A stretch of DNA of 59,567 nucleotides from a virus: the IMG/VR virus record IMGVR_UViG_3300027971_000004, positions 1 through 59,567 of that record. One strand, 5' to 3'. The notes under the pieces were generated by a model. That model was not told the origin of the DNA, searched no databases, and saw nothing but the letters and a program-made list of their open reading frames with translations. Positions 1,747 to 57,483 of the stretch are shown here, in pieces (position 1 is the stretch's first letter; each line of letters begins with the position of its first letter). The position numbers and the translations under genes were made by a program.

Positions 1747-1775
1747 ATTCTATACAATCGGTTTCCGGCTGTCAA
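1747..1775 (-). promoter_or_regulatory. Sigma70-type promoter for the orphan gene
   Basis: On the minus strand TTGACA (1775-1770), a 17-bp spacer and TAGAAT (1752-1747) make a near-consensus promoter. The predicted start near 1740 leaves a leader of about 45 bases before ATG 1696. This is the strongest-looking host-type promoter in the genome. Confidence 0.85.
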
Positions 1776-9326: not shown

Positions 9327-9400
9327 GCGAGATGGCTGACTTTTTCCTTGGTTCTTTGATAGTATTAGTTGTCCTATTCTTCTCGTCACTGAGGAGCTGA
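9323..9400 (+). CDS. Micro-ORF, 25-aa membrane peptide
   Basis: ATG 9323 overlaps the previous micro-ORF, with GGAG upstream. The product is one membrane-spanning segment ('FFLGSLIVLVVLFFSS') with few other residues. Its stop overlaps the recombinase start (TGATG). It may be a small membrane peptide or may only couple translation of the recombinase to the operon. Confidence 0.5.
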   Translation: MSEMADFFLGSLIVLVVLFFSSLRS

Positions 9401-10185
9401 TGCTATACCTATACGCCCGTGTGTCCACCGACAAGCAGGAGAACGGCCGCGAGGCCCAAGTCTCCAGGCTCCAGCAGTGGGTCGCTGACAAAGGCTTGTC
9501 GGTGGACGGTGTGTACCTGGACGAGGATGTGTCTGCGTTCTCTGTGTCACTGCCAGACCGACCGGCTGGCAAGCAGCTGTGGGATGTCCTCGCACCAGGC
9601 GATACGGTCCTGATGACCAAGATCGACCGCGGCTTCCGGCGCTGGGCCGATGCCGCAGTCACACACGCTAGGTGGAAAGACCTCGGTGTGTCGCTGCGGT
9701 TTACGGACATGGACTTCGACCTGTCCACGCCGCAGGGCGAGTTGTTCTTCTCGCAGATTGTGGCGTTCAGTCAGTACGAATCACGCATGCACGGGCAACG
9801 CAAGCGTGAGGTCTACGCCAACAAGCGGCAGAGCGGACTGCCCTACAACCAGCTGCGTCCGTTCGGCTGGCTGTCAGTGAAGGGTAAGTCTGGCCGGCTG
9901 GAATCCTGGCAGCCCTGCCTTGCGGAGCAGGAGCTTGGCCGGCGGGTTGTGGCGATGCGGAAGCAGGGGATGACCTGCTCTAAGATCGCCCTCGTCCTTT
10001 GCCATGAGGGACTGAGGAAGCCGGTGAGGAAGAAGGGTTCGTCCGGTTACTATCACGTGAACGATGTGTTCCTTCTGGAGCGTGCGGCGAAAGCCGGATA
10101 TCCAAAGCTGCCGCGAGGTTTCTGGCTAGCTCCCGACTACGCACAGAAGCTAGACGCAATGAGATGTCATGGTCTTCCGCTATAG
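9400..10185 (+). CDS. Serine recombinase (resolvase/invertase fold), 261 aa
   Basis: The N-terminal catalytic domain has 'YARVSTDKQ' with the nucleophile at Ser9, then 'TKIDRGFRR' (the conserved Arg region) and the long E-helix 'SQYESRMHGQRKREVY'. After about residue 145 a short DNA-binding domain follows ('GMTCSKIALVL' near residue 200). It is far shorter than large serine integrases (450-700 aa), so it is more like a phage resolvase, invertase or compact integrase. ATG 9400 has GAGGAG upstream and overlaps the preceding micro-ORF. Its last 206 bases lie antisense to the 3' end of the sigma-like gene. With a tyrosine integrase also present, dimer resolution or DNA inversion is a possible job. 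Confidence 0.9.
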   Translation: MLYLYARVSTDKQENGREAQVSRLQQWVADKGLSVDGVYLDEDVSAFSVSLPDRPAGKQLWDVLAPGDTVLMTKIDRGFRRWADAAVTHARWKDLGVSLRFTDMDFDLSTPQGELFFSQIVAFSQYESRMHGQRKREVYANKRQSGLPYNQLRPFGWLSVKGKSGRLESWQPCLAEQELGRRVVAMRKQGMTCSKIALVLCHEGLRKPVRKKGSSGYYHVNDVFLLERAAKAGYPKLPRGFWLAPDYAQKLDAMRCHGLPL

Positions 10186-46624: not shown

Positions 46625-47498
46625 TCGCCGGCAATCGCCTCATAATTTCAGCGGGAGCCTTGAGGTCCACCAGCTTGACGTTCATGTCCACGTTAGCCTC
46701 AAAGGACTGCCGCATCTTCTGGGCAATCTGGCTGGCGTCGATGAACTGCGGCTTGCCGACGCACTTGGGCTTCCAGTGACCGGCCCACGCATCCCAGTTG
46801 CAGTAGACCGGGTTGTAGCCCAGCTTCTGAGTGCCGACGAGGGAAATGTCCCGAGTGTTCGTCACATCCTCGGTGGATGATTTCTCGGCACAATACTTGT
46901 CTTTCCACTCATAAAAGAACCACGGCTTGTCTTCTGCCGTCTTTGGTTCCGTAAGTTCAAACGCCCGCATGTCGTACATGATCAGGCCGGTCGGGAGCGC
47001 GGCGCACTCTTGGATGCCAGCCAGCTTCACGGCAGTGTGCCGGTCGTACATCTCAAGCTGGAAGTCCGGGTTGGGATTCTCGGACTGCATGTGCTGCCAC
47101 CGGAACACGTAGACGCACTCCACAGGCGGAGGACCGCAGTAGGGCGCACCAATGACGCATGGACCCTTGGCGTAGTGGTCCACCAAGAAGTCGAAGGACG
47201 AGTTGAAGAACGGCTTCACGCCCTCTTGGCCCATGAGGATGTCGGGCTTCATGTCCGAGTCCACCATCACCAGAACGTCAACTTCGTTCTGACGAGCCAT
47301 GAGTACGGCCCGGTTGCGAGTCATAGTGATCGGAGTGTCGGCCAGGTTCCAGACGCGGATAGTTCCAATCCGTTCGTCCTGGGAAGCGTTGGCTACAAGC
47401 GGCACCATCCACTCTCGGATGTCAGGAACCTCAGAGGAGATTCCGCCGTTGCCGCCGTAAGAGAAAGTGCAGATACCTACGTTGAACTTTTGCTGCAT
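46617..47498 (-). CDS. Glycosyltransferase-like protein (GT-A fold), 293 aa
   Basis: 'VGICTFSYGGNGGISS' at the start and 'NEVDVLVMVDSDMKPDILMG' near residue 75 give a nucleotide-sugar-binding pattern with an Asp-x-Asp ('DSD') metal site. 'ALPTGLIMYDMRAFE' further on is like the acceptor-side loop of such enzymes. ATG 47498 follows GAGGTG. It has its own promoter (47524-47552), so its level can differ from that of structural genes. It might modify the phage particle or host surface sugars; DNA glucosylation is less likely without a modified base pathway. Confidence 0.65.
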   Translation of the reverse strand: MQQKFNVGICTFSYGGNGGISSEVPDIREWMVPLVANASQDERIGTIRVWNLADTPITMTRNRAVLMARQNEVDVLVMVDSDMKPDILMGQEGVKPFFNSSFDFLVDHYAKGPCVIGAPYCGPPPVECVYVFRWQHMQSENPNPDFQLEMYDRHTAVKLAGIQECAALPTGLIMYDMRAFELTEPKTAEDKPWFFYEWKDKYCAEKSSTEDVTNTRDISLVGTQKLGYNPVYCNWDAWAGHWKPKCVGKPQFIDASQIAQKMRQSFEANVDMNVKLVDLKAPAEIMRRLPASV

Positions 47499-47523
47499 AA
47501 AACACCTCGGGGGTTGGTGTACA

Positions 47524-47552
47524 AGCGTACCCTAAATGGTCGCTATAGTCAA
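47524..47552 (-). promoter_or_regulatory. Sigma70-type promoter before the glycosyltransferase
   Basis: TTGACT (47552-47547), a 17-bp spacer and TACGCT (47529-47524). The stop codon TGA of the upstream gene lies inside the -35. The predicted start near 47517 gives a 20-base leader with GAGGTG before ATG 47498. It can drive the terminase-portal part of the block. Confidence 0.75.
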
Positions 47553-53289: not shown

Positions 53290-53447
53290 GTGTCTGCATT
53301 GCCTTCGGGGGGAAAGGACTCTGCATGACTAGTGGCCGACGAATCGACGTTTTGTTCCAGGTAAGGCTGATTTCGGTAGTCGATGAATTCTGTGCGACTC
53401 AAGTAATCGCATAGCCGAGTCAAAATCTCCGGACTTTCGCCGCAGAT
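53290..53447. other. 158-bp gap between scaffold and PAPS-like genes
   Basis: No supported gene. A minus-strand frame beginning TTG 53402 reads a protein-like peptide for about 50 codons into the scaffold gene but has no ribosome site. TTGACT occurs at 53423-53418 without a matching -10. This gap is the natural place for a strong capsid promoter, but I cannot point to one. Confidence 0.3.
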
Positions 53448-54311
53448 TTAGTTCCCGCAGTATCCTTCGCACTCGTCTTGGAAACCAGCGAAAAGACTTT
53501 TCTGCCCGCTCTTTTCGTCGGCGGGCCGTAGATCGACTTCATCCAGCGGAACGCACGCCTTGTGCAAGTATCGGTGAGCGTCCAGCCCGGTGCCGGTGCG
53601 ACACACCTTGTCGATATGGACGGCCCGGTCCCAGCCCTTGGGATCGTCGGTCTTTAGCCGACGCCACTCGGCGTCTGACTTGAACGGGCAGAACACGCAC
53701 GCAGACCGCGGAACCTCGTACGGCAGTCGCTCCCGCAAGTACGCCATGCAATCACCGCGAGTCATTTGCATATCCCACAACGGAAAGTGGACCTTCCAGT
53801 TAGAGGGCTTGGCAAGAAACCGCTGCTTTACTCTGATGACACGCTTTGGCTCATCAAAAGACAAGCCCATGTATTGATGAACAACAACGTCCTTGCTAAC
53901 GGGCCTTCCTGGCTGCGCTCCGACATGCTGCCGAATCAGTCGCTCAATCGGCCTGACCTTAAAATCAGCTGTGCATTGCCGCTGAATGATGCCCTTGTCG
54001 CCGGTCTGCGGATTCAACGTGTAGGCCGGAATGGAAATGAAGTGCCCGCCATCTGTTCGCTGATTTCCGTTTACGTCTGCTCCGCGATCTAAGGCGTCTC
54101 CAAGCCTTCCTGCCGTTGTGATGATGATGGGCGGCCCGCCAAGCGTCTTGAGATAGTCAAGGTGCTTGTAGACCTCATCTGGCTCTTCTTGAACGTCGGC
54201 AAAAATCGCGGCATCAAACTTCGGCACCTCTGGCTCGTCGCCATCGATGCTCATCAGGTAGAGGGCCGTTGACTGCACGCCGGCGCCAAGATTTAGAAAG
54301 TGGTGTTCCAT
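53448..54311 (-). CDS. PAPS-reductase-like adenine nucleotide alpha hydrolase, 287 aa
   Basis: The PP-loop-like 'FLNLGAGVQSTALYLMS' near the N-terminus and 'IFADVQEEPDEVYKHL' match the fold of PAPS reductases and related phage enzymes. 'ACVFCPFKSDAEWRRLKTDD' near residue 210 and 'CTADFKVRP' give a set of Cys residues seen in family members with metal or catalytic thiols. It lies between virion genes and has its own leaderless promoter. Sulphur transfer, nucleotide or DNA modification are possible roles; none is shown. ATG 54311 has no ribosome site; a TTG three codons upstream is less likely. Confidence 0.8.
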   Translation of the reverse strand: MEHHFLNLGAGVQSTALYLMSIDGDEPEVPKFDAAIFADVQEEPDEVYKHLDYLKTLGGPPIIITTAGRLGDALDRGADVNGNQRTDGGHFISIPAYTLNPQTGDKGIIQRQCTADFKVRPIERLIRQHVGAQPGRPVSKDVVVHQYMGLSFDEPKRVIRVKQRFLAKPSNWKVHFPLWDMQMTRGDCMAYLRERLPYEVPRSACVFCPFKSDAEWRRLKTDDPKGWDRAVHIDKVCRTGTGLDAHRYLHKACVPLDEVDLRPADEKSGQKSLFAGFQDECEGYCGN

Positions 54312-54319
54312 GGCGCACA

Positions 54320-54348
54320 AATGTACACCAAACGTCGCGTTATGTCAA
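54320..54348 (-). promoter_or_regulatory. Sigma70-type promoter giving a leaderless start
   Basis: TTGACA (54348-54343), a 17-bp spacer and TACATT (54325-54320) on the minus strand. The transcript should begin within one or two bases of ATG 54311, leaving no room for a ribosome site. The stop codon of the upstream gene is embedded in the -35. Confidence 0.8.
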
Positions 54349-55028
54349 CGCAAACGAAGAAGCCTGATCGCCTCTTCTGGCGTCATTGATCCCGTACCAG
54401 GAACATAACCTTCCCGCGGGCGAACGGGACCGTCGAAAACCCCAAACGTGCCATCCGGCATCAGCCCAATGTTCCCCTCGTCGTAATCCAGCCAGTGGTG
54501 TCCGCGCGCCCACAGGCTCTGCTCAACATCATGCGCCCTGTCGGTCCACCACTCCCAGTGGCCGTGCCCTTCTGGGCGCCACTTGTCAGCATAGGTCTTA
54601 GCAGCGCGAGGCTGCACTCCAAACGCGACCCCACCTTCAGCCCCCTTGGAGGCGTACGGAACGACGCCTGGGACATCGGGTAGTTCGTACAGCTTTGGGT
54701 CGTAACCGACTTTAAACACGTACCGCTGATCGCCAAATGACGGGAGGGCCTCAAACACCACACTGTCTTGGCCTGACCCAATGGTGTCACCGAGCGTCAG
54801 CCTGTTATCCTTCAAAAATTCGTTGACTCTGTTCCAGTCTTCTGGAGAAGTGTCGGTGTGTCGCAGCAGGTGGTCGGCCAGCATGGCGTGCTGCGAATTG
54901 CGTTTTGCTTCAACCAACCGCTCTGCGACCATGCTGCGCCACGCCGGTTCACCGTGGTAGGCCCTAATGACAGAGCGAACGGCATCGCCTGCTTCGTCCG
55001 CGTGCTGGGCGAATTGGCGTGGGTTCAT
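54345..55028 (-). CDS. Kinase-fold-like protein, 227 aa
   Basis: Residues 75-110 contain 'LGDTIGSGQDSVVFEAL' (Gly-rich loop) and 'YVFKVGYDPK' (possible catalytic Lys). Near residue 180 'HHWLDYDEGNIGLMPDGTFG' and 'VFDGPV' resemble the Asp...Asn and Asp-Gly parts of kinase-like folds. An N-terminal helical part of 70 residues precedes. It is small for a full kinase and the metal-binding Asp may not be canonical, so it could be a pseudokinase. Similar domains occur in large phage polyvalent proteins. ATG 55028 overlaps the previous stop (ATGA). Confidence 0.6.
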   Translation of the reverse strand: MNPRQFAQHADEAGDAVRSVIRAYHGEPAWRSMVAERLVEAKRNSQHAMLADHLLRHTDTSPEDWNRVNEFLKDNRLTLGDTIGSGQDSVVFEALPSFGDQRYVFKVGYDPKLYELPDVPGVVPYASKGAEGGVAFGVQPRAAKTYADKWRPEGHGHWEWWTDRAHDVEQSLWARGHHWLDYDEGNIGLMPDGTFGVFDGPVRPREGYVPGTGSMTPEEAIRLLRLR

Positions 55029-55771
55029 TTGTATTCGATCCTGAGCCGCGGAGCCTCTGGAGAGTTTCGCAGCCGGCGAATGACTTCTCCTGCATCATCC
55101 ACCAGTTGCGTTGTGGCACCCCTGCCATAGGCCGCTTGGTCTGCCGCACGGCCTACGGCACGCATAACGTCATCGGCCTTGGAGAGTCCCTTGGCGCCAA
55201 GTTTCGCTGCGGCGAACGGCATGGCTGGAGCGACGAACGCCATCGGGCCACGCACGGGAGCGGCAAGGTAAGTTTCTGGGTCAGTCCCAAAGTCAAAAGC
55301 CATGATGCTTGCTTCGGGCACGCCGTTCTTCCTAGCCACTGGTCGCCAGTCATCGGGTGATCCTGGAGTTCCTGCGGCGGCTGGCGTGTATAGGGCTGAA
55401 GGAAGTGCGCGTGCGGCAAGCGATGCAGCGTCTGAGTAGTTGCCCTGATACGCCTCCTGTGCGGCGCGAAGACCGGTGTCCCTTACTCGCTGCCCCATAG
55501 CCAGGGCGTAGTCCGCAGCCGCCTTCTCGTCATCCCACGCCTCAGTTCCCATGCGTGGATAGAACGAGTTCGCCGCCATGTTCATCCGCAGTTCGCGCGG
55601 GTCATAGGTCGTACCGCGTGCATCGTCATAGATGGCGGTGTCATTCATGCCGCGCAGGGCCTTGTACAGCGGCTGGGACTTGGTTCTCTCCCACTCGGAT
55701 CGCTGGATGGCCTGATCCCTCGCCTCGGATTCCGGAGAACCCTGCATCCATTCGTACCAGGAGTCAGCCAT
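55025..55771 (-). CDS. Putative virion protein, 248 aa
   Basis: ATG 55771 overlaps the previous stop by one base. N-terminal half helical and charged, then Ala/Gly-rich with hydrophobic patches ('RGPMAFVAPAMPFAAAKLGA'), ending in a helical Arg-rich part. Probably an internal or ejected protein; not recognised. Confidence 0.65.
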   Translation of the reverse strand: MADSWYEWMQGSPESEARDQAIQRSEWERTKSQPLYKALRGMNDTAIYDDARGTTYDPRELRMNMAANSFYPRMGTEAWDDEKAAADYALAMGQRVRDTGLRAAQEAYQGNYSDAASLAARALPSALYTPAAAGTPGSPDDWRPVARKNGVPEASIMAFDFGTDPETYLAAPVRGPMAFVAPAMPFAAAKLGAKGLSKADDVMRAVGRAADQAAYGRGATTQLVDDAGEVIRRLRNSPEAPRLRIEYK

Positions 55772-57483
55772 TACTTGTTGAGCCTTTCGATAAGGTCATC
55801 GTCCGACATCATTGGGGCAGCCACTGCGGCACCAATGCCTTGGGTGAGGATGCGCCTTCGCATCTCGTCGGACATGATGTACCGCCTCCCGGCCTCGCCG
55901 GCACCTTGGCGAGTTAGTTTCCCAACCGAATCCAGCTGTTCTCGCAATGCAAAGTTGTGCATTGCCCTTGCGTTATGGGGCGCAAGGTACAGGGCTTGGC
56001 TTGTGATGCGCTGGGCCGCCTCCGGGGAAAGCCCAAGGGCATTCAAATACTCATACATCTCTTGCGGGGTTCCGCCATCGGCCTGAGACACTGGGTGCGA
56101 ACCGCCGAAACGGTCGTACGTGAGCGCCTGCTGCGCCGGAGGCAGGCTGTCGTACCGCATGCCGCTGTACAGCCTCCAGAAGTTAGGCCCCAAATGTTCG
56201 TCGCCAGTGGCGGCACGCATTTGATCGCGAAAAGGTTGATGAGTTTCGTACTGGGGACTTTCTTCTGCGATCCTTGCAACTGGCGAATTGCTCTCATCCA
56301 CCGTTAACCCGCCCATCTTTCTGCCCAATCTCTCCAGTGCGCCTGGAACAACCTTCCCGTAGAAGTGTTCGTAGTTGTCGATGTTGCCGCCGACCTTGTC
56401 AGCGATTGACCTGGGAGAGGCGACCTCAATTGCGCGGTGACCTTTTTGCGCCGCCTCTAGGGCGAGTCGCTTGATCAGAAGGTCTGCCCAAGAATCCTCC
56501 AGCGGAAAGTGAATGCCCTGCGACTTGGGGTCGTTGGACCACTGCCACTCGCCGTCATCGCCCATCTGCATGACATAGCCCTGTCCCTGGACGCGATCCA
56601 GATAGGCAGAGTCAGACTCGCTCGGCAGTTGCGCTGGTGGGCGTTGATGGTTGGCGATAGCTTCTCGGACCTTGCGGTTATGAATCCCTAAGTCAGACTG
56701 CAGTTCGTTTATCCGCAATGCATCGCCGTGAGTGTCGTAGCGTGCGTGAGCAACTGCGTTGGAGTCTATGTCTGACCAGTGAGAGCCAAACTCTGCGTTC
56801 TCTCGCATTGGCTGGCTGAGAAGCATTTCTGTGTAGTTTTTCCCGCCCTGGCCGTAGTTTCCATACTTGGGGCCAGAAACTATCTCGCCACTGCCGATGG
56901 GCTTTGGCCCCACGGGGGAAGACTTGGAAAACCAATCCCGCACATCATTCTCGCTGGGGGGCGTGCTGTGAGTCCTTGCGCGCTCTCCTGGCCGGGGAAC
57001 GCCTTGCGCGTCCGAGGATATGACGGTGACCCCCCATTCCCAGGGCGATTCTTCGCTGCGGTTAAATCCCAGGACCTTGTCGTAATCGCCGTAGCTGCTG
57101 ATTACAGAGCCAGGCGTATAGTATCGCTGGGCAAGGTCTGCCATGCCGCCCGCAGTTGTCGGGTATCGGTTACCCGACTCCGCAAGCAAAAGCTCTTTGT
57201 GCGTGTAGACCGGGCTACGTTCCTTGACTCGCGATAGAAGCTCTTCTCTTGCAACCGCATCGCGGCCGGCGATCAGCGAATCAAAGTCAGCCGCCTTCAG
57301 CTCCCAGCCCGGGACCCCGTCCTTGTATCGCTTGAGAAGCCCAGGAAGTTCTTGCACCCGGACGTTAGCGGGCATCTGCTCAATCGCCCTCTCTAAGCGA
57401 GAGTAGATTCCCGGGCCAGGGTTGTAGGGTAAGTATCCCGCGATCTTGCGGACTGCGTCCCCGGCTTGATCAAAGGTCGCCAT
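55771..57483 (-). CDS. Polyvalent-protein-like virion protein, 570 aa
   Basis: Residues 215-265 ('HWSDIDSNAVAHARYDTHGD', 'RINELQSDLGIHNRKVREAI') and 330-350 ('DSWADLLIKRLALEAAQKGH', 'AIEVASP') match a domain I know from very large 'polyvalent' phage proteins, often of the form HW...N..aH.R...ElQSD...W..lllKr....A. There the domains are thought to be ejected into the host. The C-terminal 150 residues are helical. ATG 57483 follows the stop of the upstream gene by one base. Confidence 0.7.
   Translation of the reverse strand: MATFDQAGDAVRKIAGYLPYNPGPGIYSRLERAIEQMPANVRVQELPGLLKRYKDGVPGWELKAADFDSLIAGRDAVAREELLSRVKERSPVYTHKELLLAESGNRYPTTAGGMADLAQRYYTPGSVISSYGDYDKVLGFNRSEESPWEWGVTVISSDAQGVPRPGERARTHSTPPSENDVRDWFSKSSPVGPKPIGSGEIVSGPKYGNYGQGGKNYTEMLLSQPMRENAEFGSHWSDIDSNAVAHARYDTHGDALRINELQSDLGIHNRKVREAIANHQRPPAQLPSESDSAYLDRVQGQGYVMQMGDDGEWQWSNDPKSQGIHFPLEDSWADLLIKRLALEAAQKGHRAIEVASPRSIADKVGGNIDNYEHFYGKVVPGALERLGRKMGGLTVDESNSPVARIAEESPQYETHQPFRDQMRAATGDEHLGPNFWRLYSGMRYDSLPPAQQALTYDRFGGSHPVSQADGGTPQEMYEYLNALGLSPEAAQRITSQALYLAPHNARAMHNFALREQLDSVGKLTRQGAGEAGRRYIMSDEMRRRILTQGIGAAVAAPMMSDDDLIERLNK

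Follow-up and report, generated by a model that had tools for sequence, protein, structure and literature searches.

The PAPS-reductase-like gene of the viral record IMGVR_UViG_3300027971_000004 (IMG/VR) lies upstream of the scaffold and capsid genes and directly behind a promoter-like sequence, which raises the question of whether this putative enzyme has a promoter of its own, whether its message is leaderless, and whether the timing of its expression differs from that of the virion. We analyzed the whole record (positions 1 to 59,567, 59,567 nt; here called the window), in which the gene runs from 53448 to 54311 on the minus strand, has an ATG start, and encodes a 287-aa PP-loop protein matching phrog_424 (E = 4e-35), a family named "phosphoadenosine phosphosulfate reductase." Searches of the protein against Pfam and the sequences of solved structures returned no match; for its AlphaFold model (mean pLDDT of 83), the best fold match was CysH 6vpu (E = 4e-4, TM of 0.33 to 0.42), and CysH and other PP-loop ATPases were resembled only loosely. 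The protein is like the phage PAPS-reductase-like PP-loop proteins of phrog_424 in its profile match and in the GAGVQST loop and the CxxCPFK and ECEGxCG motifs that it keeps in common with its homologues. Cysteines 113, 188, 205, 208, 281, and 285 are invariant among these homologues and suggest a metal or iron-sulfur site. "PAPS-reductase-like" is a fair name for this putative enzyme. A single-protein search of viral contigs recovered 22 close homologues (72 to 90% identity) and one distant one, and a search with an alignment as the query recovered 80 loci. One locus, L019:5001-6743, carries a tandem pair of PAPS-like genes, 80% and 58% identical to that of the window.

On the minus strand, the junction upstream of the gene reads CTTCGTTTGCG-TTGACA-TAACGCGACGTTTGGTG-TACATT-TGTGCGCC-ATGGAACACCAC, with the gene opening ATG GAA CAC CAC after TGTGCGCC. 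The -35 hexamer TTGACA (54343 to 54348) agrees with the consensus at 6/6 positions, and the -10 hexamer TACATT (54320 to 54325) agrees at 4/6, the key A2 and T6 among them; the two are separated by a 17-nt spacer (54326 to 54342), and 8 nt lie between the -10 hexamer and ATG 54311. The upstream open reading frame (54345 to 55028, minus strand; 227 aa, with an N-terminal "AGDAVR" tag) has its TGA stop (54347 to 54345) within the -35 hexamer. Both the hexamer arrangement and the embedded stop had been reported in a preliminary description of this DNA, and rereading of the sequence confirmed all of the coordinates. A sigma70-type promoter is expected to have TTGACA/TATAAT-like hexamers 16 to 18 nt apart, and the pair found here answers to this better than chance would give. 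With a score of 10/12, the site is the best promoter-like match between 40 and 59.6 kb, and when the regions upstream of the 73 genes were shuffled, 0.5% of the sets had a TTGACA site 4 to 12 nt before a called start (0.005 expected per 73 genes); across the window, three TTGACA-N16-18-TANNNT sites were found versus 0.42 expected. These chance tests are post hoc, and conservation is the better test.

The only homologue in the same phage lineage and the same slot is that of IMGVR_UViG_3300027963_000084 (L014/L042); compared with the window, this phage has a scaffold protein of 69% identity and a capsid protein of 82% identity. Its junction reads CGTTTGCG-TTGACA-AAGCCCCGCCAGTTGTG-TACATT-TGTGC. 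Two identical 14-nt blocks, the first comprising the -35 hexamer with the preceding codons and stop and the second (GTGTACATTTGTGC) containing the -10 hexamer and the last 3 nt of the spacer (GTG), flank the first 14 spacer positions, which have drifted to 5 matches; the upstream open reading frame of L042 ends at the same place, its stop also inside the -35 hexamer. Identical blocks around a drifted spacer are what selection on a promoter should leave, and this conservation is the strongest evidence for a promoter. Against it, hexamers kept with a free spacer were seen in one relative only, L042, closer capsid relatives lack the PAPS-like gene, and the -10 hexamer agrees at no more than 4/6 positions. 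Besides L042, a scan of viral contigs for the promoter block found unrelated contexts only, and among the matches listed by a looser scan, those near a g90-like gene were unrelated. It could be argued that TTGACA comes from the last codons of the upstream gene and its stop codon, which it overlaps, and that TACATT is fortuitous, particularly as promoter-like sites scoring at least 9/12 in the last 20 kb (3 versus 5.2 in shuffles) are not raised in number; the hexamers conserved while the spacer drifted and the rarity of such a site in shuffled sets make this quite improbable. We consider the sequence at 54348 to 54320 to be very probably a real promoter.

The next question is where its RNA would begin. 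Close homologues begin MPEHHFLNLGAGVQST or MEKHYLNLGAGVQST, within 1 or 2 residues of ATG 54311; because these starts agree, we take ATG 54311 as the start, and the in-frame TTG at 54320 is ruled out. The usual distance from the -10 hexamer to +1 is 6 to 9 nt, so that the RNA would begin between 54314 and 54311 (minus strand), and a leader of 0 to 3 nt is the best prediction for this mRNA. At the ideal +1 stands a pyrimidine, C54313, so that the actual start might lie a base or two away. According to Zheng et al. (2011; PMC3160421), bacterial TA-led leaderless genes have A2 of TANNNT 8 to 14 nt upstream of the start codon; here, A2 of TACATT lies 13 nt from ATG 54311, and the predicted start zone fits this rule. 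Also as in such genes, the start codon is correct and no Shine-Dalgarno sequence precedes it: the duplex energy in the -17 to -4 region is -1.6 kcal/mol, and a weak GGTG further upstream is part of the promoter and would be outside the predicted RNA. The absence of a ribosome site noted in the preliminary description was thus confirmed, but it is not distinctive, as 34 of the 73 called genes have a duplex weaker than -5 kcal/mol (a rough figure, since gene starts were called by a simple script).

Comparison with L042 suggests how such a start may have arisen. There, the promoter lies 22 nt before the ATG of a 118-aa open reading frame (orf118) with an AGGAG, as in a normal leadered gene, and the PAPS-like gene follows orf118, overlapping its end. 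In L024 and L027, the parts of the window's record where the PAPS-like gene lies, orf118 gave no match, and the window's PAPS-like ATG occupies the position of the leader of L042. A leaderless or near-leaderless PAPS-like message is therefore, in our estimation, likely. It is also conceivable that the promoter is real but minor and that most of the PAPS-like protein comes from read-through of the overlapping upstream genes (57483 to 54345, same strand, overlaps of 1 to 4 nt) via Shine-Dalgarno-poor initiation or reinitiation, given how many genes of the window do without a strong ribosome site and that, elsewhere, the genes of several homologues overlap the gene before them. However, conserved promoter boxes would then be unnecessary, and the 33 nt from the upstream stop, a gap without a ribosome site, is long for stop-start coupling; we regard this as unlikely.

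A leaderless start of this kind has counterparts. The cI gene of lambda, transcribed from PRM, is a leaderless sigma70-driven phage gene, and the window gene is like it in having a phage AUG a few bases after a -10 hexamer; cI encodes a repressor, whereas the window gene is enzyme-like cargo whose role in lysogeny is hypothetical. TA-led leaderless genes (PMC3160421), including the -10-adjacent open reading frames of Deinococcus-Thermus (PMC12340547), are alike in having TANNNT just before the start, no ribosome site, and, as predicted here, a leader of 0 to 3 nt. The window gene differs from them in being a phage gene with a full consensus -35 hexamer, in having a relative in which the same promoter is leadered, and in that its start is a prediction. 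A 2017 survey placed Planctomycetes among the phyla with few Shine-Dalgarno genes and with leaderless or S1-type signals (PMC5397173), although its Planctomycetes entry is one genome and its bearing here depends on an uncertain host. Capsid relatives occur in a Pirellulaceae metagenome-assembled genome (MAG) and in an Ignavibacteriales MAG; binning of viral contigs is unreliable, so these do not identify the host.

The setting of the gene resembles that of cargo. What lies between the g90 and scaffold genes varies greatly among 80 capsid-relative loci; only L042 has a PAPS-like gene in this slot, although some loci end short of it, and relatives with 79 to 98% identical capsid proteins mostly hold other genes there. 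The PAPS-like gene is also present in phages without this capsid, and a search of 84,980 species genomes found no relative of it. Across a tree built from 35 PAPS-like proteins, the orf118 state changes about 4 times, with at least 3 changes forced by supported branches; the window gene falls in a set of 8 rows (support 96/89), and that of L042 (row L014) falls in a separate set of 8 rows (96/95). As promoter and slot are shared while the tree groups differ, the coding module may have been exchanged.

Taken together, a cargo gene with a conserved host-type promoter and a leaderless start is the best explanation, and we consider it probable. The PAPS-like gene would be cargo in a variable slot upstream of the scaffold and capsid genes, and host RNA polymerase carrying a housekeeping-type sigma factor would transcribe it from the -35/-10 promoter. 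In L042, this promoter would drive orf118, which has a ribosome site, followed by the PAPS-like gene. The window lacks orf118 and its leader, which places the start codon 9 nt behind the -10 hexamer, and the mRNA, probably beginning at or 1 to 3 nt before the AUG, would be translated leaderless. The most fitting reading is that of a moron-like cargo gene, transcribed separately and with a TA-led leaderless start: it is absent from close relatives at the slot and, by sequence and conservation, has its own promoter. Phage morons and other accessory genes with their own promoter (PMC7067206) are likewise extra genes in a variable slot near structural genes, with a host-type promoter and a patchy distribution; unlike them, the window gene has no clear terminator found after it, the hairpins following its stop being weak (z = -0.85), and its expression in a lysogen is hypothetical. 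A further suggestion, drawn from the single relative L042 and in our view rather doubtful, is a hypothetical plug-in port, with a fixed promoter whose -35 hexamer forms part of the 3' end of the gene before it and with cargo swapped behind it; the mode of translation would then switch with each swap, being leadered with orf118 in L042 and leaderless in the window. The tree is consistent with such swaps. The arrangement itself is of a known kind, and the interesting part is the natural pair, in which the same promoter is apparently leadered in one phage and leaderless in the other, allowing a test of how cargo genes are adapted by phages to the promoters of their hosts.

The preliminary description had also proposed that independent expression suggests different times of need for the enzyme and the virion. 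Of this, the own promoter stands, with its boxes kept and its spacer drifted in the same slot of a second phage, but the difference in timing is unsupported: a promoter of this class also precedes the packaging operon, and the scaffold and capsid genes have a conserved leader of their own. A TTGACT-17-TACGCT promoter (47524 to 47552, minus strand), followed in the window by TGTACACCAACCCCCGAGGTG and conserved in relatives, lies before ATG 47498, the gene that precedes those for terminase and portal. Among 943 distinct starts from the PAPS and capsid loci, 27 had a site scoring at least 9/12 at 20 to 29 nt upstream, versus 0.6 in shuffles, most of the best sites preceding this one gene. Since the same promoter class stands before packaging genes, an internal sigma70-type promoter is no mark of nonvirion timing; separate timing of the PAPS-like gene is unproven, and an internal promoter near structural genes should not, alone, be read as evidence of it. 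The interval from 47498 to 47552 (minus strand) holds, besides the packaging promoter, a C-rich leader hairpin that contains the ribosome site GAGGTG. A classic leadered promoter, TTGACA-17-TAGAAT with a GGAGG leader, lies elsewhere in the window (1747 to 1775, minus strand), about 50 nt before ATG 1696 of a 335-aa gene.

Two further roles for the promoter can be weighed against these data. It may serve lysogenic conversion, with the gene expressed in a lysogen whose late genes are silent, which would add a role to the cargo explanation and not replace it. The window has a serine-recombinase integrase gene (9400 to 10185; phrog_95, E = 3e-34), and accessory "moron" loci are described as often highly expressed when most prophage genes are repressed (PMC7067206). 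On the other hand, the promoter class is shared with the packaging operon and so is not lysogeny specific, and no prophage copy with the PAPS-like gene was found in the 84,980 species genomes; we think this role possible at best. Alternatively, the GTGTACATTTGTGC block might also be an operator for a phage or host repressor, making the promoter regulated and not constitutive. L042 has a near-dyad TGTACA-TT-TGTGCA, the 14-nt identity runs 5 nt past the -10 hexamer, and a similar TGTACACC follows the -10 hexamer of the packaging promoter; however, the dyad is just 4/6 in the window and any protein binding it is hypothetical, leaving an operator unlikely.

The region at 53290 to 53447 (minus strand) comprises the gap and the structured leader before the scaffold/capsid operon. 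The conserved leader carries GTAACAAAA..CATT..TAGA, and a hairpin whose loop is C rich abuts scaffold ATG 53289. Of about 40 relatives (L028 to L107), most have such a hairpin (53290 to 53325 in the window; loop CCCCCGAGG) right next to the scaffold start codon, and its stems vary in sequence yet keep pairing (e.g., GTTAGTTAG/CTAACTAAC and GATCTCTTAG/CTAAGAGATC). An Rfam search found no known RNA in the window, and the hairpin looks like an undescribed structured leader of the capsid operon.

Another group of homologues has a conserved TTGAC-N7-CCATGCTGC block, which stands at fixed spacing directly before a PAPS-like ATG that lacks a Shine-Dalgarno sequence (L006:696, L008:4976, L010:2099, L011:4976, L018:839, L020:3807, L139:2475, L143:2135, and L144:2475), behind several different upstream sequences. 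It was rejected as a sigma54 site, as the -24/-12 GG/GC spacing is wrong for one, and as a sigma70 site, as there is no -10 hexamer at 17 nt; it is distinct from the window's promoter. A conserved sequence upstream of orf118 in L003, L004, L015, and L123 was likewise set aside as a promoter candidate because it may be coding. Finally, otherwise unlike proteins encoded upstream of the scaffold gene share an N-terminal tag, approximately F..QAGDAVR.VI. Its carriers include the products of 55771 to 57483 and 54345 to 55028 in the window and of L042:2419-3045 and L042:3079-3636, together with proteins of L028, L035, L050, L064, and L101, and the tag could be a sorting or packaging signal.
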